A stretch of DNA of 64,000 nucleotides, taken from Acidobacteriota bacterium (GTDB lineage: Bacteria; Acidobacteriota; Terriglobia; Bryobacterales; UBA6623). Below are positions 21,012 to 41,192 of the stretch, in pieces. Numbering within the stretch: position 1 is the stretch's first letter; every line of letters starts with the position of its first letter. The notes beneath the pieces were generated by a model that was not told where the DNA came from, searched no databases, and saw nothing but the letters and a program-made list of their open reading frames with translations. Location of the stretch: the NCBI GenBank assembly GCA_016125275.1, contig WGMB01000008.1, positions 62,001 to 126,000 of the forward strand. The letters are read 5' to 3'. A program made the position numbers and the translations under genes.

Positions 21012-21034
21012 CCTTCCATCGTACCGACCCGCCC

Positions 21035-23737
21035 TCAGCGGCGGTACAAGGACCGCTTGAGCCCTGTGCGGAGCGGCAGGCGGTAACCGATCATCGAGAA
21101 CTGATCGAACGCCCAAAGCGCAACCGACTCCACGGCCTCCCGACGACTCAGCCTTCGCTCCAGATCCCAGGGCTCAGACGCATTGAAGACGCCGATCAGG
21201 TGCGCACTCTGCGCTCGCGAGAATCCTTTGGTCTGGGGAAACCGAATCGACTCCACGGACTTGTTCAGGTTGCGATCGCCGGTATAGGTGAAATTCTCGG
21301 TCTTCAGAGTTTCGTAGTGGGCGGTGGTCCACTCACTGTCAGGGTAGTTCACGACCCTCGTCAGCGGATGATCGTTCACATCGTGAGGGTAAAGCACCTC
21401 AAAGCGAGCATTCGGATACGCGGCCAAGACAAAATTGCGGATTGCAGCGGTATACGAGCCAATCAGACCCGGCAGAAACTCCGCCTCCTCAGCAAAGCCA
21501 TCGAGCGTCTCGTCGTTGCTCGCGAACACATGCAGGGCTCGGCCGTAGAGGCTCTGGAACTGCGTCGTCGTGTAAGCATCGTAGAACGTCATCCCGGAAG
21601 ACCCCGGGAAATACCACCACTGGACCTCTCCGAACTGGAGATACGGAACCTGCCCCGCCTCGGCCTGCAACTGAGCCATCTCGAGGTACACCTGCTTCCA
21701 GTAGGTCACGGCAACCGAGGAGAAGTTCGTCTGAATGGCGGGAGTGTTGAGCAAGACGGCGCTCCCGTTCGGATACCGCTGCGCGATCCCGGTCGCCGCG
21801 GAAGGGTCACCGTGAGAGAGTTCCGTGGAGAACGCCGCCGTGCCCTCGACGCCCTCGGAGAGCAAAGCCGCAAAGTAGGAACGATGCCAATCGCGTGCGG
21901 CCCGGTTGAGACGTGGTATCGCGGAGAGATCCGTGCGCCACACGCCATCGACGCCCCCACTCAGCGTCGCCCCGGACGCAGTCGCCAGAAAGGCGCCGGA
22001 GGTAGGGCTGGCGGACAGTGTAATCGCATTGCCGGCCGCCCCCAAGGCGCGCGCACTCACGGTCAACACCGGCCCCACGGCCTCCGCACGAACACCGGTC
22101 GACCCATCGTTGATGAGATATTCGAACGATTTGGCGATAGTCTCGTTGGTGTCAGCAGTCAGGGCGAGCCGCGCAAAGGAGGTCCCGTCGATGATTACCT
22201 CGACCGTCTGGCTGAACGCCGGCTGCCCGCTGAATGTCACCGTACCGGTCGCATAGGCGTTGCCCTCGTTCTCCAGTTCATAGAACAGGATGGCTCCGAC
22301 ATAGTGGTTCGCACGCCCGCGAAACCCCAGGCGCACGAGATTCCAAACGACGCGCTCCGGGGCGAGAACTACGGAGTGGTCGGTATCCCAATCCGTCGCC
22401 AGGGTCTCGATTGCATCGCCAGCAACAGGTGACACGGTTGCCGTTGGCGCCGCCGCCTCCACGAAATCAAAGTAGAAAGACTGATTCGAAGAGGCAGGAT
22501 TTTGCCCCACGAGTCGTGCCACTACGGTGTGGCTCCCAACGCCAAACGCGCCCAGATCCAGCCTGGCCAAGAAGTCCTCTCCAGGAACGAAGAGGTCGTA
22601 TTCAATCTCCGGGCCGCCGTCGACCGAGACGGCGATAATCCCCGCTTCATAGGTCCGCCGAACCCCCAAGAACAGTCGATGCCCTTCCAGATGCTGATAC
22701 TGCGCGGTGCAGCTTGCATCCAACTCCACCGTGCGGTAGATCGACCCGCCTGAGAAGTTGCCTTGGCTCTCGGTCCACGTTCCCGAGTAGGAGACGTCAC
22801 CGTTCTCGATTCGCCGGCTCGATGGGCCCGCAACGACGTAGCTCCTGCCGGTTCCGCCCACGACCCAATTGCTGACTGTAACGGCGAACTCTGAGCGCTG
22901 GTACGCCCCCACCTGGAGCGCGGCCGAGTACGTCCAGCGCATCTTCCTGACGTCGGTTGTCGGAATGGGCCCGCCGCCGATGTCGTTGAGTGAGCTGAAG
23001 TCGAGATCCACTTGCCACTCAGTCGGCGACACGCCGCCGGCCAACGTCTGGAAGGCGGGCGTCCAATGCTCCGTCTGGAAGCCCCCCACCGTGGCAACGA
23101 CCCCCAGCCGATTGCCTTCCTCGCCCGGCGCGAGATTCACTATGGTGATCGTCCCCGCCTGAGCGTCTGCGGCCGCTGAAACCGTCGAGGACAAGGCGTT
23201 GATGGTGCTGGCCAGGTCCTCGAGGACTTGGCCGACTGTCTCACCGGATTGAACCGTGTGGTTGTAGTGTTCGTTCCTCCACGCCAACTCGACGCTATCT
23301 CCCGCCGTGAACGAGCCGCCCAGGGAAAACGTCGCCGAGGCGGGAGTGTAGCTGCCCTGAACGGCCGTCGCGTGATCTGCTAGGCGAACCCGGTAGATCT
23401 GCTCCACGCCGTTCTCGTCATCGGCCCAAATCCGCAAATAGGGCCAGTCAACGGTGGGGTAGAGTCCCGAGTCCATCGGAATGCACTCGACGCGAGTCTC
23501 CCGATAGCTCAGGGTGAGTCCGCTCAGGTCGCCGTCTGGAAGGGGCCGAAGCGAGGGGTGTTCGAAGACGTTGTCGCGATTCCACTCGATCACGGCCCAG
23601 TCAAACTGCTGCCGCCAAGTCCCGGAAACCGTGAAACCTCCGGCCGAGGTCTCGCTCAGGGCCGCGATCGCCGACGGACGATAGAAGTAGCACTGCAAGT
23701 CGCGGTCGGGGCGAAGCTTTGCGAGAGTCTCAGACAC
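21035..23737 (-). CDS. Phage tail-tip protein with glycosidase-like C-terminal domain
   Basis: 900 residues, last gene of the phage-like cluster. The N-terminal part is beta-rich. Two repeated modules (about 160-230 and 555-610) end in GEEGNRLGVV and GAAGNAITLS, like flagellar-hook/phage IN-type domains. From about 640 the sequence resembles a TIM-barrel glycosidase, with YLQFGEVQWWYFPGS carrying a candidate catalytic Glu. This echoes the TIM-barrel tail protein of Rhodobacter-type gene transfer agents, but the similarity is judged by eye. It may cut surface sugars or cell wall at the tail tip. It overlaps the upstream gene by 8 bases. Confidence 0.65.
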   Translation of the reverse strand: MSETLAKLRPDRDLQCYFYRPSAIAALSETSAGGFTVSGTWRQQFDWAVIEWNRDNVFEHPSLRPLPDGDLSGLTLSYRETRVECIPMDSGLYPTVDWPYLRIWADDENGVEQIYRVRLADHATAVQGSYTPASATFSLGGSFTAGDSVELAWRNEHYNHTVQSGETVGQVLEDLASTINALSSTVSAAADAQAGTITIVNLAPGEEGNRLGVVATVGGFQTEHWTPAFQTLAGGVSPTEWQVDLDFSSLNDIGGGPIPTTDVRKMRWTYSAALQVGAYQRSEFAVTVSNWVVGGTGRSYVVAGPSSRRIENGDVSYSGTWTESQGNFSGGSIYRTVELDASCTAQYQHLEGHRLFLGVRRTYEAGIIAVSVDGGPEIEYDLFVPGEDFLARLDLGAFGVGSHTVVARLVGQNPASSNQSFYFDFVEAAAPTATVSPVAGDAIETLATDWDTDHSVVLAPERVVWNLVRLGFRGRANHYVGAILFYELENEGNAYATGTVTFSGQPAFSQTVEVIIDGTSFARLALTADTNETIAKSFEYLINDGSTGVRAEAVGPVLTVSARALGAAGNAITLSASPTSGAFLATASGATLSGGVDGVWRTDLSAIPRLNRAARDWHRSYFAALLSEGVEGTAAFSTELSHGDPSAATGIAQRYPNGSAVLLNTPAIQTNFSSVAVTYWKQVYLEMAQLQAEAGQVPYLQFGEVQWWYFPGSSGMTFYDAYTTTQFQSLYGRALHVFASNDETLDGFAEEAEFLPGLIGSYTAAIRNFVLAAYPNARFEVLYPHDVNDHPLTRVVNYPDSEWTTAHYETLKTENFTYTGDRNLNKSVESIRFPQTKGFSRAQSAHLIGVFNASEPWDLERRLSRREAVESVALWAFDQFSMIGYRLPLRTGLKRSLYRR

Positions 23738-26700
23738 GGATCGTCACGCTCAGGTCGCTGCCGGGGTACTGGGAGCCGACTCCAAGAATGTTGAGGGTGA
23801 GGCGGCCGCCCTCACGAAGGATGGGAAGATCGAGACCATTGACCGAACCGCTCGAAGTCTCGCCGTTCAGAATGGTTAGCGTTGCGAGCGCGTTGTCGTC
23901 TTGCATAACCTCCACGACCAGATCCGCCCCTACCGGCGCCGACTTCACCAACGCGAAGAAGTCTCCGATCGAGGCATCCTGTTGGACCGCTAGAGGCGGA
24001 CAAACGTCGTCTAGCACCCCCAGAACGCCTTCGATCTGAAAGTCGAACTGTCCTCCGCGTAGGCTGCGCAGCCCCCTGTCCACAAGTTCAGAAAAGTTGG
24101 CGACAGCCGTCGGGCTGACTCCAATCGAATTGGTGAGTTCCAACTCCGCCGCAGCCAAGCTCACGCTAGGCAACTCCAAGCCATGGGCCCAGCTAGAGCC
24201 CTCCGGAGTACCGAAGAACCCGCGCGGAAACGCGACTGTTTCGATCCTCGTCTGGATCTTCCGGATCGGGGCCCCGGCGCTGTGGCCAGCGGCGACGCTC
24301 TCGCCCTGCGCCCTCTCCACTTGATAGGAGAGCCCGCCACCATCGACCGACGTCACTCGAACCAGTTCGTAGTCGATTTGAAGCAGGTCGCCAATCTCTG
24401 CGGCTCCCGGCGCCACAAGGGTCAGGGATAGCGCCACGTCGTCCACCGCCTGATCGAGGACTTCGTCGGTGGCTGTCGCCAGCTCATCACGGTAGTGCAA
24501 ACGGATCAATCCGGTCGAAATGGTTTGCGTGTTGACCAGCGTGGCAAAACCGATGCCGCCGACATCGAACGAGCCATCGCCCCGAGTGTTGACCGCGAAC
24601 ACAGGCTCTGGAGGCGCGTCCTGGTCGGCGACGCCCAGCCCTCCGCCTCCGATCCGCCAGCGGGTTACGATCGCGAGTCCTTCGAGGGCTTCTACGTTCT
24701 GCGCGTTCGCAGCGCGCCCCGTAAGCTGGACGACCTCGTCTCGCCGATTCGGGATCTGGAATCGAGCGGGGCTGCTTCTCGCACGCCCTCCAAAGCGCCA
24801 CGTTGCCTCCGAGACGACGAACACAGACGACGTGCTGGGTTCCACCTGCCACGACGGCTCAACGATGACCTCCGTGGCGGAGTTGCCTACGACCTTACGC
24901 TCCTGGTCCGCACCCTGCCCCCGAACGATTCGGACCACATGGCCTACGTAGCCGTTCGGAGGCATTTTTAGAAGGTCGCTGCCGATCGAGTCCGGCCCAA
25001 ACGTCGAAGCGAACTGTTCCGGCGTATTCTCGAGGCGCCAGTAGAAGTTCGCGTGGTCGTAGTGCGGGTCGGGAGCCCCTTCGAGCTCAGCCGCAAGGCC
25101 CGTATCGGAAAACGAGATGGAAACCGACTGTCCGGCGGCGATGCGCAGAAGGCGGGACGGAAGCTCACCGCGATACACGCTGAAGCTCGCCGCTGCCGGG
25201 TTGAAGCTCAGTCCATGAATCGTGACCTGATTCGTCGAGCCGCCGGCCGGAATGTCCGCCCGAACGACGAAAGATGGCGAGCTCTCCAAACCATCCCCGT
25301 CGGTCGCCGTCACAGCATAGTAGAGAGTCTGCCCACCTTCGATCGTCCCTCCCATAGACAGAACTTCGGGCTGCAGGTCCAGCAACGGAGCCGTTGCAGC
25401 CAAAGACACTCCCGTCTGGGGCGATCGAAATCCGACTTCCACCTCGGTCAAGATGGTTCCGTCGGAACCGCCTACCGTATACTCTTCGACGCCGAACTGC
25501 TCCCGGCCGAACTCGTCGAGCTCGACGCCGAGAAGCGTGTTAGGCTGCCTCGATTCGGCCGGAGGCAGTCTCTGGGTGGGAGGAATCAGGCTGAGCTGAC
25601 CGTTGGTGTCGTTATACCAGGCATCGTCGTGGAGTTGTGCCGTAATGCGGACCGAGCGGTAGTTCGGGCCAGGCGCAATCTTACAGATCCGGAAGGGCTG
25701 GTTGACCAAGCCCTCCTTGAGATAGGTGACGGCTATGATGTCGCCGAGTTGTTGCCCCAGAGCCTTGACGCTAGTCTCGAGTTCGAGGAAGCGGTTGCCC
25801 CGCACGGAGCGATCCAAGAAGTATTTGAGGGTCCGAGCCGCTTGGTCATAGCTCGGCAGACCGTCCACAATCAAGCGACCCGTGATCTCCTGCCCCGTCG
25901 TCCGGATGCTTTCGAGATCGTTCAGGCCGAGGCTGTCCTGCTGATACTCGTTGAACTCATCCGCAAACTCGACGGCAAATCGGTTCGGGGAATCCACAAT
26001 GGGCCTGGAGGACAACCGGACTGAGGAGGAGCCGTCAGGCCGGCGCACGACCGCGGACGCGATCCCCTCGGCCGATCCGTCGGCGTAGACATACGCCGGC
26101 CAGCCACCGTTGAGGGGCTCGACCGCATTCGATCCATCGGGTTTGCTGGGTTGCTGGAGCAGCAGACTGTTCTCGACCAGCACGGCCAAGCGGCCGTCCG
26201 AGCGATAGGTGAGTTGCAGGCGGGCGTTATTTCGGATACCCCGGATCAGGTCCGCCGCCGTGCGCCGGCTTCGAACCGATAGGTTGCACCGGAAACGCTT
26301 GGTCGAGATTGCATTGCCCTGGTTGTCCGTCGCCGCGATCGCCTCATCGCAAAAGCCCGCAGCCGACGAGAAGCTCGCAAAGTCCAACTCGTCGCTCCGC
26401 CATCCACTGCGCCGCAGTACGTCCAGCAGAATCCACGCCGGATTGTCGGTGTACGAATACCCTTGCGAAACGCCATCCGAGTCGAACGACTCCAGCCTCA
26501 TTCCTCGCAGCAGGACCTTCACCCGCGGCGAGGAGCCGGCGTCGTTGAGTTGATTCGGAACGACGACGGACAGAGCCGCCATGCCTCCGTACGGGTCGCC
26601 CAACGGCTGGCCTGACAAGGTCGCGAAGTTCAGATTGAAGCCGCCCGTACGTGTCCCGGCGGCGAACAGATTCCACCAGCCGCTGGCCGTCATGTCCCGA

Positions 26701-28435: not shown

Positions 28436-28789
28436 CTAAGGCTCCCAGATCGTCACCGATGTACGGAGATCCCATTCGGCCTCTGCCGCCAACGTGAAGG
28501 CGTCGCTTCCGAACCGGCACCCCGTCACCACCTCGCCGGTCCAAGGATCCTCGAAGTCGAACTCGCCGGACGTACCTCGCATCTCCAGAAAGAACTCCCG
28601 GAGGACCGCTGCCTCCGAGCCATCCAACAAGGACAAGTCCAAGACCCATCGCCGCCTCGGCGCAGCCGAGTCGATGTAGCGCTGTTCAGTGCTGTCCAAG
28701 AACCGTTGCGCCTCACTCGCCAGGCGCAGTTCTCTGGTCGCCGGATACTGCGCCGACGCGCCGGTCTTCAACTTCGGAAACTGCGGCAT
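28436..28789 (-). CDS. Distal-tail-like protein (short paralogue)
   Basis: 117 residues. FPKLKTGASAQYPATRELRL, WVLDLSLLDGSEAAVLREFF and FDFEDPWTG match, in order, the pattern of the next gene, so the two are likely paralogues of a DUF2460-type distal tail protein. It lacks the extra beta domain. The start codon overlaps the stop of the beta-helix gene by one base (TGATG). Confidence 0.62.
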   Translation of the reverse strand: MPQFPKLKTGASAQYPATRELRLASEAQRFLDSTEQRYIDSAAPRRRWVLDLSLLDGSEAAVLREFFLEMRGTSGEFDFEDPWTGEVVTGCRFGSDAFTLAAEAEWDLRTSVTIWEP

Positions 28790-30594
28790 CAGCTCAAACC
28801 TCCGATCTGCAATTCGAAGCCCTCCGCCATCGCTCGAATCCAGTCGGCGTCCACGTCGGTCAGCCGGTGGGCGATCGCAGCCCGCCCGTCAGCGAGCTTC
28901 GTCGGCACTCCGATCCAAACCGGGCCGGCGCCTCCCTCCAACAATGCCGTCACCTCGACTTCCGTCCGAAACTGCTCAGCCTTCGCCAAGGTCGAGAAGA
29001 TCAGCAGCGCCGTCGAAGCCGGTGAGGCATAGGGTCCGGCGTGGGCCCGCCAAGCTCTCCGTCTTTGCTGAAGCAACTCGACCCGGATCGCAGGATCATT
29101 CACGCGCCACGCCTCGATCCTCGCGGCTCGTTGCTGCTCGGCCGGTAGGTCGGCCCCAGGGTCGGGTATGGGTTGGGGCTCGCGAGCCTCCGCCACCCAG
29201 CCGGGGTCCGGCCATTCCAACAGGAAGACTCCGAACGCAGGCAGCGTCGGTGGCAGTGGATTCACTGCGACGTCGCGCCCAATCGGGGCTGCCTCCCCCC
29301 ACCCATCCAGAGAGACCACGATTTCGCCGTCATGAAGGCGGAAAGTGCGCCAGTCCGACGGCGCCTGCACCGAACAGATGCGGACCTCCGCCCCGGCAGC
29401 GATCTTTCCCTCGTTCTCCAGTTCGGTCAAGTCGATCTCGATCTCTGGAGCCGACGCCCAGTTCAGAACGCCTACCGTGAGCCTGCGCCGCCCGTCCCAC
29501 AGGTTCGGCTTTCGGCTGTTTTCCCACATCCAGATCCAGCATCCTTCCGCCGGTGCCTGTTCGTAGTAGTCATTCAGAGGAAACAGGTCCTGGACCGCCG
29601 CTCCTTGAATCTCCGCCTCGGATCCCAGCTCGGAGTACGACACTCCGCCTACGATCCGGTTTCCCTCGACGGTCGCGCCCTCCGCCCGCTGAATCTTCGC
29701 CGCTTCGCGACCCGGGTGAACCAACCAGTTGCCCACCAACTCGAGACCGTGACTGCCGCCGGCGCCACCGAAGAGGTTGTACTCGTGCCCACGGGCCGGC
29801 CCTAGCGGCAGATACGCCAAGTTGCTACGGATGATCACCCCCTCGTGCTCGTCCGACCCGTTGCCAAACATCAAGTTCCGATGGAAACCGTCGCCGGCAA
29901 TTCCGTTGTTGAAGAACGCGTTCCCCTCCACCGTCACGTGGGCAAACGGAACCGACCCGAAGCCCTGCAGTCCCTGTCGTCCATGCTGGAAAACGATATT
30001 GCCCTCGATCGTCTTCCGAGGCCCTCCAACCGGGTTCCTGAGGTACAGCCCTGGCCCGTGAGAGCGGTCAGGCCCATCCCAGTAGGCGTTGAAGAATCGG
30101 CATCCTCGAATCTCGATGCCGCTCGGTTGGGACTCGAACAGCGACAGGCCGAAATCGTGAACCTCCAGATCGATCAACTCGATTCCCAGTCCGCTCTCCC
30201 CAAGGATTCCGATCCCCCGCGGATCGCCCACGTCGCCGGGAGTTTCGGACCAGCGGACCGTCTTCGAACAAAACAGCTCAAAATCAACGAACTGCGTGTA
30301 TACGCCCGCGATCCGAAGGCCGAAGCGACTCCCAGTAAAGGCCGCATCGATGCGGGCCGTCCCGGCCTCCGGGTCTCCGCGCACGACAACGGCCTTACCG
30401 GCCAGGCCCGCTAGTCGGCTGACCATCGGACTCCGGGGCTGATACAACCCGCCCAGTAGCCAGATCACGTCGCCTGGCTGAACCTCAGGCGGGTGAGCCA
30501 GAGCCCTCTCCAAACTCCAGGGCCGAAGTCGCGAGCCGTCGCCCCGCCAGCTCCCGGCGGGGCTGCAGTACCAACTCAAACCCTGAAACGGCAT
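28789..30594 (-). CDS. Right-handed beta-helix (tailspike/pectate-lyase-like) protein
   Basis: 601 residues without a signal peptide. Residues about 1-330 contain parallel beta-helix rungs, typical N-x-(V/I/F) ladders: IEGNIVFQHGRQGLQG, VTVEGNAFFNNGIAG, VIIRSNLAYLPLG, LELVGNWLVHPG. The opening YCSPAGSWRGDGSRLRPWSLERAL is the usual first turn of such helices. Phage tailspikes of this fold bind or degrade surface polysaccharides. The C-terminal 250 residues (RIEAWRVNDPAIRVELLQQRR onward) look like a separate attachment or tail domain. Position between tape measure and distal-tail genes supports a side-fibre role. Confidence 0.72.
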   Translation of the reverse strand: MPFQGLSWYCSPAGSWRGDGSRLRPWSLERALAHPPEVQPGDVIWLLGGLYQPRSPMVSRLAGLAGKAVVVRGDPEAGTARIDAAFTGSRFGLRIAGVYTQFVDFELFCSKTVRWSETPGDVGDPRGIGILGESGLGIELIDLEVHDFGLSLFESQPSGIEIRGCRFFNAYWDGPDRSHGPGLYLRNPVGGPRKTIEGNIVFQHGRQGLQGFGSVPFAHVTVEGNAFFNNGIAGDGFHRNLMFGNGSDEHEGVIIRSNLAYLPLGPARGHEYNLFGGAGGSHGLELVGNWLVHPGREAAKIQRAEGATVEGNRIVGGVSYSELGSEAEIQGAAVQDLFPLNDYYEQAPAEGCWIWMWENSRKPNLWDGRRRLTVGVLNWASAPEIEIDLTELENEGKIAAGAEVRICSVQAPSDWRTFRLHDGEIVVSLDGWGEAAPIGRDVAVNPLPPTLPAFGVFLLEWPDPGWVAEAREPQPIPDPGADLPAEQQRAARIEAWRVNDPAIRVELLQQRRRAWRAHAGPYASPASTALLIFSTLAKAEQFRTEVEVTALLEGGAGPVWIGVPTKLADGRAAIAHRLTDVDADWIRAMAEGFELQIGGLS

Positions 30595-30603
30595 GGGAGC
30601 TAG

Positions 30604-31332
30604 CTAAGGCAGCGTTACGCGGCCGGTGAGCACGGCCTTGGCGTACGTACGCATCGCTTCTTTCTCGGCGCCAGACAAGACCCGGTTGTGCACAGAGAAA
30701 AAGGCGACTTCGGCGTTCGCAAAGTAGGTCGTACCGGCCGCACCAAGGCGGCAGATGGTCTTCGACTGCCCCGCCGTGCTGTTGTCCGTACTCGTGGCTG
30801 CGTGGGAGAGTCCGTCCACCACCAGTTCCGACTGAAGGATGTCCGCCGCCGCATTGCCGGGGCACGAGAACACAAAGAAATGCCACCCCCCGTCCTGCAA
30901 ATTCGACGGGGAAGCCTTGTCGAAGTAGCGGAAGCACGTACTCGCCAGCCAAATCAACGGCCGGTTCTGATTGAAGGGCGCAGCCGCGTAGACGGCAGGG
31001 AACTGAGCGACGGACCCCCAACCCACCAGGGGGACAGCGACTCCCGGCGTCACCTTCGCGGCGACGGAGATCGTCCAAGCATCCGATCGAAGCTCCGCCG
31101 CCGAACCGTGGCTCACCCAGTCGTCCACGGCGAACTGCAGACCCGCGGCACTCCACGAAGGGTCATTCGTATCCGCCCCGGTCGTCGACCCAAGAGTCCC
31201 GTGTCTGCCCGCCCCCGAATGGTCAACCACAGTCTGGCCGGAGCCCTCGTCGAGCCACGACAGGACCTGCAACCCGGCGGTCACCGCGCCCGGACCGCTC
31301 GGAACCTCACGTTTGAGCAGCAGAATCGACAT
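30604..31332 (-). CDS. LamG/concanavalin-like lectin protein (tail fibre)
   Basis: 242 residues forming one LamG-type jelly roll: WLDEGSGQTVVDHSGAGRHGTL is the classic opening, followed by WTISVAAKVTP, GWHFFVFSCPG and a closing VHNRVLSGAEKEAMRTYAKAV. Members bind carbohydrates. Without a signal peptide and within the tail module, it is best read as a receptor-binding or decoration protein. It begins five bases before the preceding gene's stop region ends, so it is tightly packed. Confidence 0.72.
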   Translation of the reverse strand: MSILLLKREVPSGPGAVTAGLQVLSWLDEGSGQTVVDHSGAGRHGTLGSTTGADTNDPSWSAAGLQFAVDDWVSHGSAAELRSDAWTISVAAKVTPGVAVPLVGWGSVAQFPAVYAAAPFNQNRPLIWLASTCFRYFDKASPSNLQDGGWHFFVFSCPGNAAADILQSELVVDGLSHAATSTDNSTAGQSKTICRLGAAGTTYFANAEVAFFSVHNRVLSGAEKEAMRTYAKAVLTGRVTLP

Positions 31333-31336
31333 GGCC

Positions 31337-31681: not shown

Positions 31682-31684
31682 CTC

Positions 31685-32281: not shown

Positions 32282-32297
32282 CCCTCTCTTTCCTCCT

Positions 32298-32975
32298 TCA
32301 GAGCTCGTCAATCACGTCATTCACGGGGTGCATGTGCAACATCGCATCGCGCACAGCCCTGGCAATGTCCTGTGACCGATCCAAGAACGACTGTGAGTCC
32401 ATCGCTTGAATGTTGACCGTAATTTCAGTCGCGGCAGTTCGACTGGCGACCCGCCGCACCGCTCCGCCGGCCTCGCCGACCGTTGGCGCCAGAGAACCGA
32501 GCGGACCGTTGGCCCTCTCCAACGCGATCGAAGGCGGCAAATGGAACGGCGTCGGCTCGGGTTCTGACTCGTCGCTGCCTCCCCGAAAGAGACCCACGAT
32601 CGAACCAGCCAGCGGCGCCAACCCGAATCCGCCTTTGAGGAACGAACCCACGCCTCCCCCCTGGCCGAGCCCCCCCGACAGAAGTCCGACGGCGCCCCGT
32701 AGGGCGCCGTTCAGCCCTTCCGCAAAGCTGCCCAGAGCCTGGCTGTTCTCCCCAAGCCCGGAGTTCACGTCGTTCAGGCCCCTGGTCACGCCGGCCAATT
32801 CCACCTGCAGCGGCTCGATCGCGCTCACCAGCGCCCCGGCGGTCGACGGCGCCACAACAGCGGCATCCCGCGCGACCGACCCGTCGCCCTGGGCCCGACG
32901 GATGGCTTGAGTCAATGCGTCCAAGGCCGTCGCCGCGCTGCGGTCCAGTTCGCTTCCAGAGTCAACGTTCGCCAT
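32298..32975 (-). CDS. Short tail tape-measure-like protein
   Basis: 225 residues, Gly/Ala/Leu-rich. The middle (LLSGGLGQGGGVGSFLKGGFGLAPLAGSIVGLF) is a hydrophobic stretch like those in tape measures. The C-terminal EITVNIQAMDSQSFLDRSQ, followed by a DIARAVRDAM helix, is a widespread tape-measure ending. Normal phage tape measures are 600 or more residues, but Rhodobacter gene transfer agents use one of about 220, so the length points to a very short tail. The start overlaps the small upstream gene by 14 bases. Confidence 0.7.
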   Translation of the reverse strand: MANVDSGSELDRSAATALDALTQAIRRAQGDGSVARDAAVVAPSTAGALVSAIEPLQVELAGVTRGLNDVNSGLGENSQALGSFAEGLNGALRGAVGLLSGGLGQGGGVGSFLKGGFGLAPLAGSIVGLFRGGSDESEPEPTPFHLPPSIALERANGPLGSLAPTVGEAGGAVRRVASRTAATEITVNIQAMDSQSFLDRSQDIARAVRDAMLHMHPVNDVIDEL

Positions 32976-33252
32976 GGCTAAACCTCATCCAGTCCTCGAG
33001 CTCGGTCGCGAGGAGGCCAAACGCGTCCACGCGCCGAGCCGGCCATCCGCCCACACTCTCGTTCCCGCCCAGTCGTTTCCAAGCAACGAACTCCTCTACC
33101 CAGGCCCAACTCCGTCCGGAAACTCCACTCACCGGACACTCCGTCGTCGACAGGCGAGGTCGATTCTCCACCGCCAGTCGGCTCACCCAGACCGGTCTCT
33201 CGGACCCTCTCTGTCCTTCGGGCAGCCACCCGCAGCGCCGCTGGCGCTCCAA
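32962..33252 (-). CDS. Probable tail assembly chaperone, small
   Basis: 96 residues from a TTG two bases after the previous stop. Trp-rich with a final helix RRVDAFGLLATELEDWMRF, as in small tail chaperones of the GTA gp10-neighbour type. The position between another chaperone-like gene and the tape measure fits. A competing frame at 32978-33283 lacks such features, but the choice is by eye and the start is weak. Confidence 0.45.
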   Translation of the reverse strand: MERQRRCGWLPEGQRGSERPVWVSRLAVENRPRLSTTECPVSGVSGRSWAWVEEFVAWKRLGGNESVGGWPARRVDAFGLLATELEDWMRFSHGER

Positions 33253-33254
33253 GC

Positions 33255-33701
33255 CTAGGCGGCGGCATTCGTCGCAGGTCCATCCGGCTTGGTTGCCTTG
33301 CAGGAAATGGAATGCGACTCGTAGTTTTTTCTTTCAGCCTCGGAGAGCCCCACTTCGGTCCGTACAGCTAGCAGCGCCTCCCGCAGTAATTCTTCGGGGC
33401 CGTCTTCCACAAGGCTCTCCGGCGTCGCCGGAGCCCCGTCAATCGCCAGCCCCTCGATACGCTCCAGACCCCAAAGCAAGTACTCCCTGTCGACCTCGGC
33501 CCCCAGCAGGGCTGCGTCAGCTGCGGCGATCGCGTCCGCATGCGGTTCCGCATCCAGGAACGCCTTCCGCTGAACCAGCTCCCGAATCCTTTCCGTCAAT
33601 GCCAACCGACGCCCAAACGACATGCAGCGGACGACAAAGACCACATCCGGCTGCGCCTCCGACCGGTGCTCCCTGCGACTCTCGTATTCCATCGCTCCCA
33701 A
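33255..33701 (-). CDS. Tail assembly chaperone-like protein
   Basis: 148 residues; ATG 33692 is an alternative start. Residues 10-90 are helical with VRCMSFGRRLALTERIREL and LLGAEVDREYLLWGLERIEG, typical of proteins between the tail tube and tape measure that chaperone the tape measure. The tail is hydrophilic. It is a plausible assembly factor that need not be in the particle. It lies 5 bases after the tube gene. Confidence 0.6.
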   Translation of the reverse strand: MGAMEYESRREHRSEAQPDVVFVVRCMSFGRRLALTERIRELVQRKAFLDAEPHADAIAAADAALLGAEVDREYLLWGLERIEGLAIDGAPATPESLVEDGPEELLREALLAVRTEVGLSEAERKNYESHSISCKATKPDGPATNAAA

Positions 33702-33706
33702 CGCTC

Positions 33707-34879: not shown

Positions 34880-34898
34880 CGTTTGGTCTCCTCGTCCC

Positions 34899-35393
34899 TC
34901 AGGCGTGAGCGATCAGCTCGATCTCCACCCGCGCTGTCTGCCGATAGTTCCGGCCTCCGCGTTCGCAGGGCTGAAAGCGTGCATCCGCCTTCCCGTCGAA
35001 AGCGAGCTCTGGCGTCCACTGCCCCCTGTGGTCTGCCAGTACGTCCATTACAGCCTCGACCAGCCGCGCCGCGTCGCCGTCAATCGACGCCAAGGTCTCA
35101 CCGCTGACCCAGGCCTCGGCGACGATGTACACCCGCCCGGAGAACGCCGTGAACTTCCGCTCCAGACGGTTCTCCAATCGGTCGCAGTACAGGAACACGG
35201 CCGGATGGACCGTGTCCGTGCTTGCGTCGCTGAGCCCCGGCTGCACGTGGCGCAACGTCACGCTCGCGTTGCAGATCCTCGGCGGTTGCACCATGTCCCG
35301 CACGGCGATTGCATAGCTTCTGGGCTCCAGCCCGTCCGCGGCCAGCAGAAACTCCCGGACCTTCTCCACCGCGGCCAACCCAAGATTCGCCAT
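34899..35393 (-). CDS. Tail terminator-like protein
   Basis: 164 residues with an N-terminal helix (LAAVEKVREFLLAADGLE) and a later YIVAEAWVSGE strand, then RLVEAVMDVLADHRGQWT and a final ARVEIELIAH strand. This is the mixed alpha/beta layout of tail terminator or head-tail joining proteins placed just upstream of the tube gene. I infer the function from the position and layout. Confidence 0.55.
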   Translation of the reverse strand: MANLGLAAVEKVREFLLAADGLEPRSYAIAVRDMVQPPRICNASVTLRHVQPGLSDASTDTVHPAVFLYCDRLENRLERKFTAFSGRVYIVAEAWVSGETLASIDGDAARLVEAVMDVLADHRGQWTPELAFDGKADARFQPCERGGRNYRQTARVEIELIAHA

Positions 35394-35402
35394 GTCCGCT
35401 CC

Positions 35403-36197
35403 TCAACCCCTCTGTAGGTACCGGGGGGCGGTCCGATACAGGTCCGGCGCTTGGCCCTCGCCGATCTCCTTGCCCAGAGCGATTCCGCTCTCCGGCATGG
35501 TCCACGGCGTCCCCACCTCCAGGGCTTGCTCGGTCTGGAGCAGGGCCTCGCCCTTCTTGCGCCCGACATAGACGTTCCAACCGGTCACTCCGGCCGGCGA
35601 GTTGGGGGCCGTGAGCTCGATCGCCTGACCCGCCCCGGTTCGTACGGCCTTCTCCAGGCTTCCAGCGCTCTCGTCGGCCCCGCGGGTCCAGGTAATGCGA
35701 ACGAAAGCCGCCATCGCAGGCAGTGTCGAGGCCGCTGAGGACACGTCCGGCTGGTCCGGCCTGGGAATCGGCGTCGCCGACAGCCCCACACCCGTTTGGA
35801 AAAGCAAATCCGCCGCCCACTTGGCGAGCTCCCGGTACTCCCGCCACTTGGGCAGATACTTGTCGTTTTCCTTGCGCGTCTGCGCGTCCCGGAACGTCAG
35901 GGCCAGCGCCTGAAAGATCAGCCACAGGCGCAACGGCGGCGTCACGATCACCTGGCTTAGGTCAAACCGCGGCAGAGAGGCCTCCCCGCCCGTCGACTGC
36001 CAGCCGGCGTCCCCCCCGTAGAACACGTTGCCCGGCCGCCTCGACGACGCCGCGATCTGCGCCCCGACCTCCGTTTGCGCCAAGCGTAGCTTCGTCGAAA
36101 GGTCGATGCCCGCCGTCGTCGCGACATCCTGCAGGTCGGATTCATAGGCCAGAAGATCGGCGATGTCAGCGGCGAATCCGTCATTGAACAGCGCCAT
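35403..36197 (-). CDS. Head-tail connector-like protein with fibronectin-like tail
   Basis: 264 residues. The N-terminal 130 are helical (LADLLAYESDLQDVATTAGIDLSTKL, FQALALTFRDAQTRKENDKYLPKW), as in neck/connector proteins. Residues about 150-250 form a fibronectin-type beta domain (FVRITWTRGADESAG, VTGWNVYVGRKKGEAL). The combination of connector and surface domain is unusual. Position after the coat gene suits a head-completion protein. Confidence 0.58.
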   Translation of the reverse strand: MALFNDGFAADIADLLAYESDLQDVATTAGIDLSTKLRLAQTEVGAQIAASSRRPGNVFYGGDAGWQSTGGEASLPRFDLSQVIVTPPLRLWLIFQALALTFRDAQTRKENDKYLPKWREYRELAKWAADLLFQTGVGLSATPIPRPDQPDVSSAASTLPAMAAFVRITWTRGADESAGSLEKAVRTGAGQAIELTAPNSPAGVTGWNVYVGRKKGEALLQTEQALEVGTPWTMPESGIALGKEIGEGQAPDLYRTAPRYLQRG

Positions 36198-36200
36198 GGA

Positions 36201-36527
36201 CTACTCCTTTCGCTTTCCGCCCGACTGCGTCAGAGCACGCAGGTCGGCCTCCGACAGGACGGCGAACTGCACTTGCGCCGCCTTCCGCCTCTCCTGCTCC
36301 TGCCGTTGAGCGTCCAGGGCCTGGCGCTTCAGCGCCTTGGCTTCGGAGGGATCAGCCAGCTCGGCCACGCCGTCGACGATCATGCGCGCCGCCACGCTTC
36401 GACTCGTTTCGACCAGCCGCCCCCCCTGGCCTCCCGATTCCGTGGGCAGGCTTCGCACCACGGGGAAATCGTCCTCAAAGGAAGCCTCGATTTCGCGAAT
36501 CCTACGGTAGTAAGCTTTCAAGTCCAT
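36201..36527 (-). CDS. Small helical phage-cluster protein
   Basis: 108 residues, charged and mostly helical (YYRRIREIEASFED at the start, KALKRQALDAQRQEQERRKAAQ later). Position between coat and connector suggests a head-completion or assembly factor. It lies after a strong GC hairpin (36540-36563) and starts at ATG 36527. I do not recognise a named family. Confidence 0.55.
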   Translation of the reverse strand: MDLKAYYRRIREIEASFEDDFPVVRSLPTESGGQGGRLVETSRSVAARMIVDGVAELADPSEAKALKRQALDAQRQEQERRKAAQVQFAVLSEADLRALTQSGGKRKE

Positions 36528-36539
36528 AACGATGCTCGC

Positions 36540-36563
36540 GGCGGGCCGGCGAACCGGCCCGCC
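36540..36563 (-). terminator. Strong hairpin after the coat gene
   Basis: A perfect 10-bp GC stem (36540-36549 with 36554-36563); on the transcript the loop is UUCG. It sits in the gap between the coat gene stop (36579) and the next start (36527). There is no T-tract, so RNA stabilisation or processing at the 3' end of coat mRNA is as likely as termination. Confidence 0.5.
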
Positions 36564-36578
36564 TCTCTCCTGCCCTTC

Positions 36579-37490
36579 CTACGACTCGACCTGGACGCCG
36601 AAGCTCGGCCGCACCACGGCCGCGCCGTACAGCACGTCGACCGTGAACTGCTGGGACAGCGTGTTCGGCTGGTAGCTCATCACCACCCGCATCCCGAAGT
36701 TGCCCAGCTCGGCGTACTCCGCGATGGCGCCGGTGCCCGGCAGCGGTTGCGGCAGACGGCGAATCACCAAACCGATCGCATCCCGAGCGAAGGCCACGTT
36801 GTGGGTCGTCACCGGCGACGAGCCCGTCTTGGCCACGAACTGCGAACGGAACACGTTGAAATCCTTGATCCGCCCGACAGTGCCGCTGATCAGCGCGTTC
36901 ACGCCGGCGTCGCCCGCCGACTGGTACTCGCTGAAGCGATTCACCTGCCGCAGAGCCGAGTAGGCGTCGGCGTCCACGATCAGGTTCTTCTGCTGGCTCG
37001 CCGGCACCTTGGCTTGGAACAGGGCGGTCTCGGCGCTGTCGATCACGGCTTCGGTCAGAGTCGTGCCCGGAGCGCCCACCGTCGAGTTGGACGTGAACTG
37101 CGCGTAAAGGCCCAACAGATCCGTCTCGATGCGCTCCGCGATCGCCACCACGGCCGGCTCCATGTAGACCTTCAGCAGGTCCGGCACCGCCAGAACCTTG
37201 GTCACGTCCGGCACTTGGAACGTCGCCTCCGCGTGGGTGTTCAGCACGATCTGCGCGTTGCCCAGATTCGGATTCTGGGTCTGCACCGTGCCGCCCTCGG
37301 CGATGTTGTTCGCCGACATCACCGGCGGAATCGGGACGTTCACTGTGTCCCCAGCCTGGCCCAGCACCGGCTCATAGTTCCGGTTGACCAGATTCCCCAT
37401 CACCAGATTCCCCATCAAGGCCGGCAGGGCGTCCGCCGCTACCAGCTTGACGATCGCCTGGGCCACGTTCGTCGAAGTAATCGCAGGCAT
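36579..37490 (-). CDS. Major capsid (P22 coat-like) protein
   Basis: 303 residues from ATG 37490, preceded by GGAGGAGAGA. The pattern NLVNRNYEPVLGQAGDTVNVPIPP near the start, NLIVDADAYSALRQVNRFSEYQ in the middle and YGAAVVRPSFGV at the end fits the P22-type coat family (HK97 fold). This family usually assembles on a separate scaffold and needs no prohead protease; none is seen here. It is flanked by a terminator-like hairpin upstream and a 10-bp hairpin downstream, so its mRNA may be made or preserved separately. Confidence 0.82.
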   Translation of the reverse strand: MPAITSTNVAQAIVKLVAADALPALMGNLVMGNLVNRNYEPVLGQAGDTVNVPIPPVMSANNIAEGGTVQTQNPNLGNAQIVLNTHAEATFQVPDVTKVLAVPDLLKVYMEPAVVAIAERIETDLLGLYAQFTSNSTVGAPGTTLTEAVIDSAETALFQAKVPASQQKNLIVDADAYSALRQVNRFSEYQSAGDAGVNALISGTVGRIKDFNVFRSQFVAKTGSSPVTTHNVAFARDAIGLVIRRLPQPLPGTGAIAEYAELGNFGMRVVMSYQPNTLSQQFTVDVLYGAAVVRPSFGVQVES

Positions 37491-37551
37491 TCAGTCTCTC
37501 CTCCATTCCTGTTTCCACGGGTTCGAGCAAAGCGCCCGGCCCCTCGACAAC

Positions 37552-37589
37552 AAAAAGACCGGTCGAAGGTCCTGCAACCCTCGCCGGTC
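37552..37589 (-). terminator. Terminator-like hairpin between scaffold and coat genes
   Basis: On the minus strand, GACCGG (37584-37589) pairs with CCGGTC (37557-37562). The stem extends inward by CGAGGG/CCTTCG with one bulged A and is followed at once by TTTTT (37552-37556). It lies about 60 bases before the coat start codon. By the usual stem-plus-T-tract rule it is an intrinsic terminator. Confidence 0.7.
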
Positions 37590-37638
37590 GTTCCTCCATC
37601 GCCCATCGGCGATCCTTTTCCGAGACCTCGACTCGAGC

Positions 37639-38157
37639 CTAGATCTCGCGATGTCCCATCAGCCGGGCGACTTCTCGCCAGGCTTTCCGCGAATCCTCGC
37701 CGCTCATTCCCGGCCGGATGCTGTCCAAATCCACCCCACTCGAGGTGAAGCCGCTCATCGTCGAGCTCGTCGCACCGGACCCGCCCGGAATGCGTGGCGG
37801 CAGAAACTCGGGGTTCTCGGCGACGAAACGGTCCAAGTACTCGTCGAGCGTCGACGTTCGACCGTCGCGATCGACCAGCAGCTCCCCGTCGGAGCCCCTC
37901 CGCACGTCGTCTCGGACGATCCGCACGGCCAAGTCCGCCTTCCGAACGCCCCGTTCGCTCAACCCATCCCGAATCCGCCGGAGCCGGTCCGCCTCGTCGC
38001 GCTCCTGTTGCAGTCGCCGGCCTTGCTCCTCGATCTCCCGAATCTTCCGCTCGAGCTCCAAACGGCGCTCGCGCTCAGCGAGCAAGTCGGCGCTCACCTC
38101 CCGCCGGTCTCCGTCTCCCAACCCCATGTCTTGTTGTGCAAATCGGTTCGGTCCCAT
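37639..38157 (-). CDS. Scaffolding-like protein
   Basis: 172 residues from ATG 38157 with GGAGG spaced 4 bases. Residues 20-75 form a charged coiled coil (LLAERERRLELERKIREIEE, then QERDEADRLRRIRDGLSERG). The C-terminal part is Ser/Gly-rich with a short final helix (DSRKAWREVARLMG). Its position between portal and coat is that of a phage scaffold, which guides coat assembly. The T-tract of an intrinsic terminator abuts its ribosome site. Confidence 0.72.
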   Translation of the reverse strand: MGPNRFAQQDMGLGDGDRREVSADLLAERERRLELERKIREIEEQGRRLQQERDEADRLRRIRDGLSERGVRKADLAVRIVRDDVRRGSDGELLVDRDGRTSTLDEYLDRFVAENPEFLPPRIPGGSGATSSTMSGFTSSGVDLDSIRPGMSGEDSRKAWREVARLMGHREI

Positions 38158-38166
38158 CCCGCCTCC

Positions 38167-38205
38167 AAAAAAACGACGGCGGACCAGCTCACCCGGTCCG
38201 CCGTC
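38167..38205 (-). terminator. Intrinsic terminator directly before the scaffold gene
   Basis: A perfect 11-bp stem (38195-38205 with 38175-38185, 9-base loop) followed on the minus strand by seven T (38167-38173) and then the GGAGG site of the scaffold gene. It has all the parts of a Rho-independent terminator. Its placement inside a same-direction gene cluster means the genes below it need read-through or their own promoter. Confidence 0.8.
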
Positions 38206-38231
38206 AGCCGGTCCATCCCTCGCGCGCCAAT

Positions 38232-39629
38232 CTAGCCCTGCTCGATCTCCTCGAGCACCAAATCCTTCATCTTCTGGCTGGCGCCTTCCAAGTAGCGCAG
38301 CGCCACCCGCTTCGAGGCTTCCTTCTCCAGCCTGGGCGAGGCAAGCTTGAGCTCTCGCAGCAGCCCAGCCGTCTCGACCTCTTCGCGCAAGTCCGGCGAG
38401 TCGAAGTCATCGAGACCGCTGATCTCGAAGGCGATCTCGTCCTGCCGAGCCTTCGCAGTCAGCGCCAGCGTCTGCCGCAGAAACTCCTTGATCGTCTTGG
38501 CGTACGAGCGAAGCACTTCGTGGGTCACGGCGAAATCCCGCTTCTTGCTCGCGCCCGACTGCCCCAGGTTCCGGGCCTCGCGGCCGGCCGACTGCGTCAT
38601 CAGGTAGCAGACTCGGTAGATCTCGTCCTTGAGGCGGTCGAGGTTCTCGGCCGCGATCTCGAAGACCTTCCCTTCGGGCTCCGTCCACCCGAAGCGATCC
38701 TCGGGGCCGAGCTGAATGTAGTAGGCCTCGCCCACGATCTGCTGCCACTCGCGCTCCGAGTAGATCACTGGCATCGCGAACAGCCCCATGTGCAACGCCC
38801 AGCCCAACGCGTTGGACTTGTTGAAGTGCTCCTGTTGCAGCAGAGCAGCCTTGTTGGCCAGCCACAGCCCATCAGAGACCTTCATCCGAACCAGCGGCGT
38901 GCGTTCGAGCTCCGCCAGGGCGTGCCGCCCCTCGCTCACCAGCTCGATCTGACCCGCCCCGGGAGCGTCGCCTTCTCCCTCCCTACGCCTCCGGACGAAG
39001 ACCCTGTAGTCGGTCCGATCGTAGTAGCTCCAGCGCTCCTCTCGAACCGTCGCCGGATCATCCAGGCTCTCCTGGAAGACCCTCTCGGTCTTGACCACCG
39101 CCCAGTCCAGCTCGCCGCGCTCATCCTCTCTCCAGTTGACGAGCTCGAGCGGAGAGACCCTGGTCAGATAGGCCCGGGAAAGCCCGCACTCGTCCTCCTC
39201 GGCGCGATTCCTGGCCGCCGAGTCCACGCGGGGGAAGTCGATCAGCGCATAACTGGAGCCGTACACCAGGGCGTCGATGAACGTGTGCTTCGTCAGCTCG
39301 AACAGAGAGGTGCCGCAACGGTCGCTGTCCGCCAGAAAGTCCCGGAAGAATTGCTTGGCCGCCGGATCCTCGGTGCAAAGCTCCATCCCGGGCTCTGTGC
39401 GGAACAGCGTCGCCGCGTACCAGTCGATGCACGATCCCAGATAGTTCTCGTAGAACGCCCGCGAGACCCGCTCGCCGTAGACGTCCTGCGGCTCCTTCTG
39501 CCGCCGCACCAGGTATCTCGGCGCGCTTCGGCGCAACTGCTCGCCGCCCACGTAGAAGTCCCTGTAGCGCTGCCACATTTCCTTGTGGTCGCGATACGCC
39601 GGATGTTCTCGTTCCAGTAGTCCGATCAC
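38232..39629 (-). CDS. Phage portal protein (DUF4055-like)
   Basis: 465 residues from GTG 39629, with CGGAGA upstream. HPAYRDHKEMWQRYRDFYVGG near the start, YENYLGSCIDWYAATLF and WALHMGLFAMPVIYSE, followed later by VCYLMTQSAGREARN, fit the DUF4055 portal group. Portals form the ring through which DNA is packaged and released. The last third has long helices (RLKDEIYRVCYLM; EFLRQTLALTAKARQDE), as in the portal crown. It starts 22 bases after the terminase stop. Confidence 0.78.
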   Translation of the reverse strand: MIGLLEREHPAYRDHKEMWQRYRDFYVGGEQLRRSAPRYLVRRQKEPQDVYGERVSRAFYENYLGSCIDWYAATLFRTEPGMELCTEDPAAKQFFRDFLADSDRCGTSLFELTKHTFIDALVYGSSYALIDFPRVDSAARNRAEEDECGLSRAYLTRVSPLELVNWREDERGELDWAVVKTERVFQESLDDPATVREERWSYYDRTDYRVFVRRRREGEGDAPGAGQIELVSEGRHALAELERTPLVRMKVSDGLWLANKAALLQQEHFNKSNALGWALHMGLFAMPVIYSEREWQQIVGEAYYIQLGPEDRFGWTEPEGKVFEIAAENLDRLKDEIYRVCYLMTQSAGREARNLGQSGASKKRDFAVTHEVLRSYAKTIKEFLRQTLALTAKARQDEIAFEISGLDDFDSPDLREEVETAGLLRELKLASPRLEKEASKRVALRYLEGASQKMKDLVLEEIEQG

Positions 39630-39651
39630 CGTTTCTCTCCGTCGCCAACCC

Positions 39652-40944
39652 TCAGAACAGCGGCCGACTGCGCTCTCCGGCCTGGGCCGGCGAGCCGATC
39701 TCCTGCCACAGCAGGTAGCCCAACGCATCGGAAAGATGCGTCCGCTCGGGATCTCGATCCTTGTCGATCACGCCCCGGTCCGGCTTGTAGCTCACCTGCT
39801 CGAGATCCTTGATCAGTTCCTTGCACTTCGGGTCGATCAGCAGGCGCCTCCGCCCGTCCGCCGCCTCCAAGCGCGAATTCACGAGGTTGACTCGATCGCG
39901 AACCGGAGGGTTCGATCGCGCTGCAATCAACTTCGCCTTGAGTCCTCGTTCCTCGGCGAAGAACTTCCGTATCACTTGGTGGTCGGAATAGGCGCTCGCC
40001 GAGTGCCTCTGGCGGCCGCTTGCATCGCCGTAGATCCTCACCGCTCCGCGGCGTCGTCCATACCTCGCCACCAACTCCTCACAAACCTCCGGCGTCGACG
40101 ACGTGTGCTGCACAATCTCGTCGACGATGTGAATCACGTCGCCCCGCCTCACTCCGATCACCGAGCACATCGGGTTCACATTGAAGTCCAACGACCACAA
40201 CAAAGTCTCTTGGTGCTCCAGCGAACAGGGCTCCACGTTCTGCCGGCGGTCGAAGGCGTGATAGACCCGGCCCACTTGCGTGTTGAGGTACTTCCCCAGC
40301 ACCTCCTGCTCGTAGAAACGCGGGTCGTAGCTCACCTTCAATCGCTCGTAGTAGTCGGACGGCAGGAACCTGTTCTCAAACGGCTCCGCCTCGACCAAGC
40401 CGTAGCCCTCCACCGGGCTCTCCCGAAACCTCCGGTGCAGCCAATCGAACCCCTTCGGCGTCCACACGCCGAATCCACAAAGCCTCGTCGCCTTCGGGTC
40501 CCGCAGACGGGCCTCCAGCCGCGTCCACGCCTCCTCCCGGCAGTAGCTCAGTTCGTCTACGCCGAACCACGCCAGGTTCGAGCCGCGCAACCGCTCCGGA
40601 TTCTCCATCGATCGAAAGATCACCGTCGAATCCTTCTCCGGGAACCGGATCGTCATCCGCGACTGGTTGAGCTCCATCGGCATACCCCGGCTCGCGCAGA
40701 TGTCTAGGAACATTGCCATCGTGGCGTCCCGCAGCATCCCGTACGTCGGCGCGCCGATCAGCCCGGTCGTCCCCGGATTCTCGAACGCCAAGTAGACCGC
40801 CTCGTGGCACAGAACCAAGCTCTTACCCGACCCGACGCCCCCCGAGAAACCTTTGAACCTGTTCGTCAGCGCGTGAAAGTCGTTTTGTGACTTGAGCAGT
40901 TTTCCGCTCAGTTTCCGGTTGAGCTGTCGTCGTCCGTGTTCCAT
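39652..40944 (-). CDS. terL: Terminase large subunit
   Basis: 430 residues. ATPase: Walker A GGVGSGKS (35-42), Walker B LAWFGVDE (124-131). RNase H-like nuclease acidic residues: D253 in SLDFN, D307 in YGDASG and D406 in RTHLSDALGY. The enzyme packages and cuts DNA into heads. All expected catalytic residues are present, so it appears active. It overlaps the small upstream gene by 37 bases. A complete terminase is needed both by a phage and by a gene transfer agent. Confidence 0.92.
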   Translation of the reverse strand: MEHGRRQLNRKLSGKLLKSQNDFHALTNRFKGFSGGVGSGKSLVLCHEAVYLAFENPGTTGLIGAPTYGMLRDATMAMFLDICASRGMPMELNQSRMTIRFPEKDSTVIFRSMENPERLRGSNLAWFGVDELSYCREEAWTRLEARLRDPKATRLCGFGVWTPKGFDWLHRRFRESPVEGYGLVEAEPFENRFLPSDYYERLKVSYDPRFYEQEVLGKYLNTQVGRVYHAFDRRQNVEPCSLEHQETLLWSLDFNVNPMCSVIGVRRGDVIHIVDEIVQHTSSTPEVCEELVARYGRRRGAVRIYGDASGRQRHSASAYSDHQVIRKFFAEERGLKAKLIAARSNPPVRDRVNLVNSRLEAADGRRRLLIDPKCKELIKDLEQVSYKPDRGVIDKDRDPERTHLSDALGYLLWQEIGSPAQAGERSRPLF

Positions 40945-41192
40945 ATCAGTTGGATCTCGGTGGGCGCCTGTTCCACATCCTCGAGATCCCGATGCAGATT
41001 CAGGAGCTGGATCAAGATCGCAACCGTCTCCTTCGTCAACTTGTCTTCGGAATCGAGCACGGCTCGCAGCTTCTTCATGGCCCTCTCGACGAGCGCCCGC
41101 GGCGAGACCGTGTCAGCGATCGGCTTCCGCTTGGCGCTCTTCGGAGGAGCGATTTGTTTCGTTGATCCCAACTTGTTCTGGGCCCGTTGCAT
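40908..41192 (-). CDS. Probable terminase small subunit
   Basis: 94 residues from ATG 41192. A basic N-terminal tail (PPKSAKRKPIADTVS) and helices (RALVERAMKKLRAVLDSEDK; LIQLLNLHRDLEDVEQ) suit a short DNA-recognition subunit, and it overlaps terL. No clear helix-turn-helix is visible, so the call rests mostly on position. No ribosome site precedes the ATG; instead a terminator-like hairpin and T-tract end about 15 bases upstream. Confidence 0.5.
   Translation of the reverse strand: MQRAQNKLGSTKQIAPPKSAKRKPIADTVSPRALVERAMKKLRAVLDSEDKLTKETVAILIQLLNLHRDLEDVEQAPTEIQLIWNTDDDSSTGN

Follow-up and report, generated by a model that had tools for sequence, protein, structure and literature searches.

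Gene content and limits of the cluster

Positions 21035–41192 of the window, by which we mean the whole stretch of 64,000 nt of acidobacterial DNA that was analysed, contain a complete siphovirus-type head-tail module lying between housekeeping genes (Table 1). The ORF listing gives an unbroken series on the minus strand, running from 41192 to 21035, and this series, together with the family matches of its products, bears out the one-strand structural cluster proposed in the first-pass annotation. In the order of transcription, the head genes encode a small terminase-like protein, the large terminase (TerL), the portal, a scaffold-like protein, a P22-type coat and three connector/terminator proteins; they are followed by the tail genes, for the tube, two chaperone frames, a 225-aa tape measure and four accessory proteins, and by the tip genes, for two DUF2460-like proteins, a 1310-aa hub and a 900-aa TIM-barrel protein. 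On one side, the cluster is followed by truB, an SH3 protein gene, hemE and PPOX, and the opposite flank holds the BBP2 porin gene, dnaK and dnaJ.

Table 1. Features of the cluster and its immediate neighbours, in the order of transcription (window coordinates)
Feature	Position	Strand	Evidence or remarks
BBP2 porin	41445..42917	-	Upstream host neighbour, outside the agent
Small terminase-like protein, 94 aa	40908..41192	-	A homologous short ORF immediately precedes terL in 32 clusters, that of the window among them
TerL, 430 aa, catalytic motifs intact	39652..40944	-	Pfam Terminase_6N/6C
Portal	38232..39629	-	phrog_145, E 1.4e-46; DUF4055 weak
Scaffold-like, 172 aa	37639..38157	-	Between portal and coat; coiled-coil-like; conserved in compared clusters
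Major capsid, P22-coat family, 303 aa	36579..37490	-	PF11651, 5e-21; phrog_283, 6e-47
Conserved small head/connector protein, 108 aa	36201..36527	-	Synteny
Connector/head-closure-like, 264 aa	35403..36197	-	phrog_8040 Hc3, E 2e-4
Tail terminator-like, 164 aa	34899..35393	-	Profile match to DUF3168 structure 9mu2, E 0.1 (weak); position
Tail tube, T5 pb6/P74-26 type, 390 aa	33707..34879	-	AF2 model and fold search
Tail assembly chaperone, 0-frame (G-like)	33255..33701	-	Synteny; bears the slippery site
Programmed -1 frameshift site, A AAA AAC	33324..33330	-	Heptamer read at 33330-33324
Chaperone -1 frame extension (GT-like)	32962..33324	-	Open; conserved CDECRRxGLExxRRCGWLPE in compared clusters
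Short tape measure, 225 aa	32298..32975	-	phrog_3779, E 2e-5; conserved C-terminus
f1-lineage accessory protein, 208 aa	31685..32311	-	G021 (41%) and IMG/VR relatives L151, L152, L156, L157
f1-lineage accessory protein, 114 aa	31337..31681	-	As for the 208-aa accessory protein
Accessory protein, 242 aa	30604..31332	-	LamG-like by eye; phrog_4390; also in IMG/VR L152, L156
Right-handed beta-helix accessory protein, 601 aa	28789..30594	-	Beta_helix, 1e-5; also in IMG/VR L156
Distal-tail-like, DUF2460-like, 117 aa	28436..28789	-	PF09343, 5e-5; distal tail protein 8gtc profile, E 0.0015
Second DUF2460-like tail-tip protein, 264 aa	27641..28435	-	Family match; synteny
Tail hub/tip J-like, 1310 aa	23730..27662	-	Phage-tail_3; phrog_31, E 8e-20; T5-type baseplate hub profile, E 0.002
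TIM-barrel "non-contractile tail sheath" type, 900 aa	21035..23737	-	PF23845, 5e-21; variable module
truB	20130..21116	-	Downstream host neighbour, outside the agent; hub-truB-SH3-hemE-PPOX order also in sister genus G029

Family searches recognised no integrase, replication, repressor or lysis genes within the cluster, and no regulator gene was recognised; on this contig the closest PF00589 integrase lies at a distance of about 82 kb, and a search for att-like direct repeats in the flanks was negative, so that the lack of these genes and of such repeats, already claimed from the first reading, holds. Likewise, no integrase, replication or lysis genes were recognised in or beside the other clusters compared, and in those checked the integrases are at least 40 kb off or on different contigs. 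The set that accompanies the structural module of a temperate prophage (integrase, att sites, replication, regulation and lysis) was not found, and neither is the cluster a tail module without head or terminase genes, as expected for a tailocin, since coat, portal and TerL are present and constrained.

Of 46 copies of TerL, nearly all retain the Walker A and B motifs and the nuclease Asp motifs, in agreement with the intact catalytic residues noted previously, and the P22-type coat was confirmed by its match to PF11651; the coat encoded in the main cluster of most genomes of the order shows 72–81% amino acid identity (67% in one). Of the proposed DUF4055-type portal, the identity as a portal stood, through phrog_145, whereas the match to DUF4055 is weak. 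The portal ORF opens at 39728, and a GTG near 39629 is probably the start.

The 94-aa product encoded upstream of terL had no match in Pfam or PHROG, and its AF2 model consists of a basic disordered N-tail, a two-helix hairpin and a C-terminal segment, with helices only at residues 30–46 and 53–73 and nothing resembling an HTH. Its counterparts in other clusters, directly upstream of terL, are 63–175 aa long and only their last ca. 60 residues are conserved; a tail of variable and for the most part basic sequence usually comes before this core. In related true phages, TerS has 137–230 aa and in most cases matches the TerS families phrog_6299 or phrog_309; a profile comparison of the reduced protein with phage TerS paired a similar helix segment and was not significant (E 0.11). 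From its position and architecture, we designate it a putative small terminase that would lack the N-terminal domain seen in the phage proteins.

The tube was identified by fold search, as neither family searches nor a sequence profile search of the PDB gave any match for the 390-aa protein: its AF2 model (pLDDT 87) aligns along the full chain with 8ed0 from P74-26 (Z 26.6) and with the T5 tube (Z 24.3); the match to the RcGTA tube is limited to one domain (Z 8.3). Downstream, ORF 33255–33701 and the region 33324–32962 are predicted to be one -1 frameshift pair of tail chaperones. The heptamer A AAA AAC occurs in 31 of 33 clusters, with AAAAAAT in one more, and in nearly all of them it directly precedes the 0-frame stop and is followed by the conserved -1 frame; the window is an exception, with the 0-frame stop 73 nt downstream of A AAA AAC.

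A short tape measure had also been claimed; one does exist, at 32298–32975, and the claim was partly misassigned, because the 601-aa ORF at 28789–30594 was rejected as a tape measure on account of its match to a beta-helix family. This beta-helix protein is a possible fibre or adhesin. In the lineage of the window, the beta-helix and LamG-like genes (28789–31332) sit between the tape measure and the distal tail genes, and the pair may constitute an adhesin module for recipient recognition. The 208-aa and 114-aa accessory proteins were not detected in the f3 clusters compared. The TIM-barrel gene is a variable end of the cluster, being absent or displaced in several genera.

Distribution, inheritance and selection

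Matches to terL were found in 188 of the 250 genomes of the host order, about 177 of them at E<1e-100, and the gene is single-copy in nearly all genomes of the order; the cluster is absent from several of them. The coat was found in 61 of 299 genomes of the class and the cluster in the two genomes examined from a second order of this class; in a sample of 396 genomes of the phylum, it appeared only in G000 and G006. A coat search of genome contigs gave 126 matching stretches, and among the 80 of these listed the titles are from Acidobacteriota (Bryobacterales/Solibacteraceae-type) with two exceptions (Acidimicrobiia and Nevskia). Portal and terL searches had suggested that, within family f1, the cluster was confined to the genus of the window; this was overturned by hub searches, which retrieved clusters cut by contig ends in G021 and G029.

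The core genes lie on one strand and in one order in 34 other genomes, so the conserved synteny across species anticipated in the first-pass annotation extends over the order. From the start of terL to the end of the hub gene there are 12.9–14.6 kb in 33 of these 34 genomes, and 11.7 kb, counted from the portal, in G020, a member of genus g15 that has no terL; in the window, four accessory genes lengthen the span to 17.2 kb, and some of these genes are also present in the related genus G021 and in relatives from metagenomes. The clusters in the compared genomes are chromosomal and their neighbours are common mainly to related genera (upstream, PBP1/proline dehydrogenase in g18/g19 and ribBA in g15/g27/g42; downstream, an M24 peptidase in 13 genomes and a Wzt-type ABC protein in nine), as expected for an old locus in rearranging genomes. 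Adjacency to truB, which had been expected in many species, is not conserved across the order and is common only to the sister genus G029, where the hub gene directly adjoins truB-SH3-hemE-PPOX as it does in the window. This G029 hub gene (L403, G029:C192:1-1500) contains, at the contig edge beside truB, one in-frame TAG, which may be due to decay of the cluster or to an assembly error. A TAG was also seen inside the alignment of truB from three g2 genomes (G013, G009 and G015; L394, L395 and L397).

The tree of five cluster proteins from 40 genomes has 23 of 37 splits in common with the tree of the host RpoB, against a mean of 0.28 and a maximum of three in 500 label permutations, and the Mantel correlation between them (r 0.64) exceeds the permutation maximum of 0.45. 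IQ-TREE placed all the clusters in one clade with a bootstrap of 100, separated by a branch of 0.57 from 10 phage and prophage relatives; families f3 and f2 and the second order each have a bootstrap of 100, and every genus with several members is monophyletic, with support of 97–100. The phylogeny thus follows the host, as had been predicted for a domesticated locus. The cluster and rpoB trees disagree in the deep order of the families, and therefore an early transfer between families is possible.

Pairwise dN/dS over whole clusters was 0.14–0.32 (ten pairs), the low values that had been anticipated, and 0.16–0.19 between the window and its nearest metagenomic relatives; it was generally lowest in the coat (0.01–0.19), portal, scaffold and TerL genes. 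Judged from the sequences, these ratios, the TerL motifs and the frameshift signal appear to be marks of a working tail assembly programme and not of decay. A prophage remnant fixed in an ancestor and now decaying could account for the in-frame hub stop at the contig edge of the G029 sister MAG, as well as for the several losses across the order, but it is at odds with the open frames, with the dN/dS ratios and with a frameshift heptamer conserved over dozens of genera; this explanation was rejected by the selection analysis, and we regard it as scarcely credible.

Related phages and gene transfer agents of other bacteria

Prophages from the same hosts (G024:C156, G066:C144 and G059:C1) and the IMG/VR contigs L371–L383 are related to the cluster in terL (32–49%), portal (28–34%), coat (52–76%) and tail genes. 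Unlike that of the cluster, their gene sets are bigger and less compact, with additional genes and a full-length TerS (137–230 aa); these prophages and phages fall outside the cluster clade, and one of them has an integrase nearby. In the region G059:C1:822000-897000 (L352, L235, L236 and L353), a stretch of about 17 kb holds two capsid genes of the family that face opposite ways, and an integrase at 824202 is separated from a capsid gene by 23 kb; the region has the appearance of one true prophage, or two, akin to the ancestor from which the cluster came. Isolated phages, which are complete, are only distantly similar: Streptomyces phage Hiyaa has a coat of the same family (28%), and Salmonella phage Jersey and the kagunaviruses have a TerL of the same family (32%).

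In IMG/VR, at least 549 contigs have a gene for a protein related to the coat from the window. The longer contigs that were read carry the same structural genes as the cluster and are, therefore, most simply explained as chromosomal fragments filed as viruses; the contigs (L151–L230; hundreds) are probably chromosomal loci resembling gene transfer agents (GTAs) and not viruses. If so, these 549 or more "viral genomes" are probably mostly host genes, which distorts surveys of soil viruses. The matches in a viral database, the clear phage derivation of the proteins and the presence of related true prophages in the same hosts might nonetheless be taken to indicate an active temperate phage family of the Bryobacterales, with prophages recurring in many strains. 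This we consider very improbable, because the clusters co-diverge with their hosts in monophyletic genera, occur as one copy in nearly all genomes of the order, are uniformly small and, where compared, carry neither inside nor alongside them a recognised gene for integration, replication or lysis, with no att repeats in the window, whereas the true prophages form a separate outgroup and the longer database contigs hold the same structural genes. A survey from 2018 predicted "active" prophages in Bryobacter and Solibacter, which were counted from one virion gene (PMC5900883).

The cluster resembles those of the RcGTA type (Rhodogtaviriformidae) from alphaproteobacteria in being a head-tail cluster of about 14 kb with a short tape measure, a headful-type TerL and a TerS without HTH, in its vertical inheritance and in the lack of phage propagation genes. 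The tail tip is also alike, being of the DUF2460/Phage-tail_3 type in RcGTA. However, the acidobacterial cluster belongs to a different phylum, is known from genes alone and has a P22-family coat and a phrog_145 portal; its tube is of the two-domain T5/P74-26 type (Z 26.6 to P74-26 versus 8.3 to the RcGTA tube), unlike the single-domain tube of the Rhodogtaviriformidae. The PDB matches of the coat, tube, hub, distal tail and terminator queries included no RcGTA chain. The low-carbon amino acid bias reported for alphaproteobacterial GTAs is absent, the values for five genes being not below those of phage homologues. The T5-type tube, the P22-type coat and the merely distant relationship to isolated phages support the origin independent of the Rhodobacter GTA suggested in the first-pass annotation. 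BhGTA from Brachyspira and BaGTA from Bartonella are likewise independently exapted phage clusters that co-diversify with their hosts (PMC9662315); these hosts differ from ours, and the BhGTA cluster includes an endolysin gene, whereas none was recognised in the acidobacterial cluster.

A putative gene transfer agent of the Acidobacteriota

We think it likely that the cluster is an ancient, host-domesticated GTA of independent origin. Structural genes have been kept across the order and those for virus propagation have been lost, and therefore these bacteria probably make virus-like particles that would carry their own DNA between cells. GTAs are defined by structural proteins derived from caudoviricetes, full endogenization, mostly vertical inheritance with host co-diversification, encapsidation of mostly random host DNA, a head too small for the whole genome, and delivery of the DNA (PMC9662315). 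Three of these six features are readable from sequence alone, and all three appear to be present: family, profile and fold matches point to caudoviricete-derived structural proteins; the locus is chromosomal, with housekeeping flanks and neither integrase nor att sites; and it co-diversifies with the host, as seen in the splits common with rpoB and in the monophyly of genera and families. We infer that particles are formed and filled with random host DNA, and that they are released and transfer it.

As a model, an ancestor of these acidobacteria would have domesticated a tailed phage whose coat was of the P22 type, in an event separate from those behind the GTAs of alphaproteobacteria and spirochaetes, and the locus would have been passed on with the chromosome. 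When expressed, it would produce a small tailed particle, with a head made from portal, scaffold and coat and a short non-contractile tail built from the T5-type tube and a very short tape measure (about 170–230 aa); recipients would be recognised by the hub and variable fibres. TerL and the reduced, non-specific small terminase would package host DNA into the heads by a headful mechanism, and lysis of the producer cell would depend on genes outside the locus. No lysis gene was recognised in the cluster; the lysis and regulatory genes of known GTAs can lie elsewhere (PMC11841831).

The RcGTA TerS starts at the coiled coil and lacks a DNA-binding domain, which was proposed as a defining trait of GTA terminases (PMC6854486) and later extended to unrelated GTAs in a review (PMC11841831). 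The putative TerS, assigned by position and architecture, appears to lack this domain too, and the absence of the N-terminal phage domain is consistent with packaging of random host DNA; an ancient GTA present across the order would support the loss of the TerS DNA-binding domain as a recurrent step in GTA evolution. The established GTAs are those of alphaproteobacteria, of one spirochaete genus, and of one desulfovibrio and one methanogen (PMC9662315, PMC11841831), and our literature search found no report of a GTA in Acidobacteriota. An ancient agent occurring order-wide would, if real, be a further independent domestication. The Acidobacteriota are abundant in soil and difficult to culture; such an agent would thus give one of the most abundant soil groups a dedicated route of gene exchange.

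Genus g15 (e.g., G020, L231, and G061, L239) has lost both terS and terL, cleanly in G020, where the portal gene directly follows ribBA; the portal, scaffold, coat, tail and hub genes remain under purifying selection, and hence the particle may serve, at least there, for something other than DNA transfer. These terminase-free clusters with conserved capsid, tail and hub genes, as well as the variable accessory modules on the tail tip, would fit a domesticated particle with no part in DNA transfer, either a phage-like bacteriocin or a vehicle for proteins or adhesins, with the head retained. Nevertheless, outside g15 the catalytic residues of TerL are conserved, and the genes for terminase, portal and coat rank with those under the strongest constraint, while bacteriocins of the tailocin type have neither heads nor terminases; g15 itself lacks the terminase and retains the head. 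We therefore judge a particle without DNA transfer to be unlikely as a general explanation. Returning to the GTA reading, we suggest tentatively, at a little under even chances, that the agent, of independent origin, already existed in the ancestor common to the two orders and became fixed in most present-day soil bacteria of the Bryobacterales type, and that in g15 it turned secondarily DNA-free when both terminase genes were cleanly lost.
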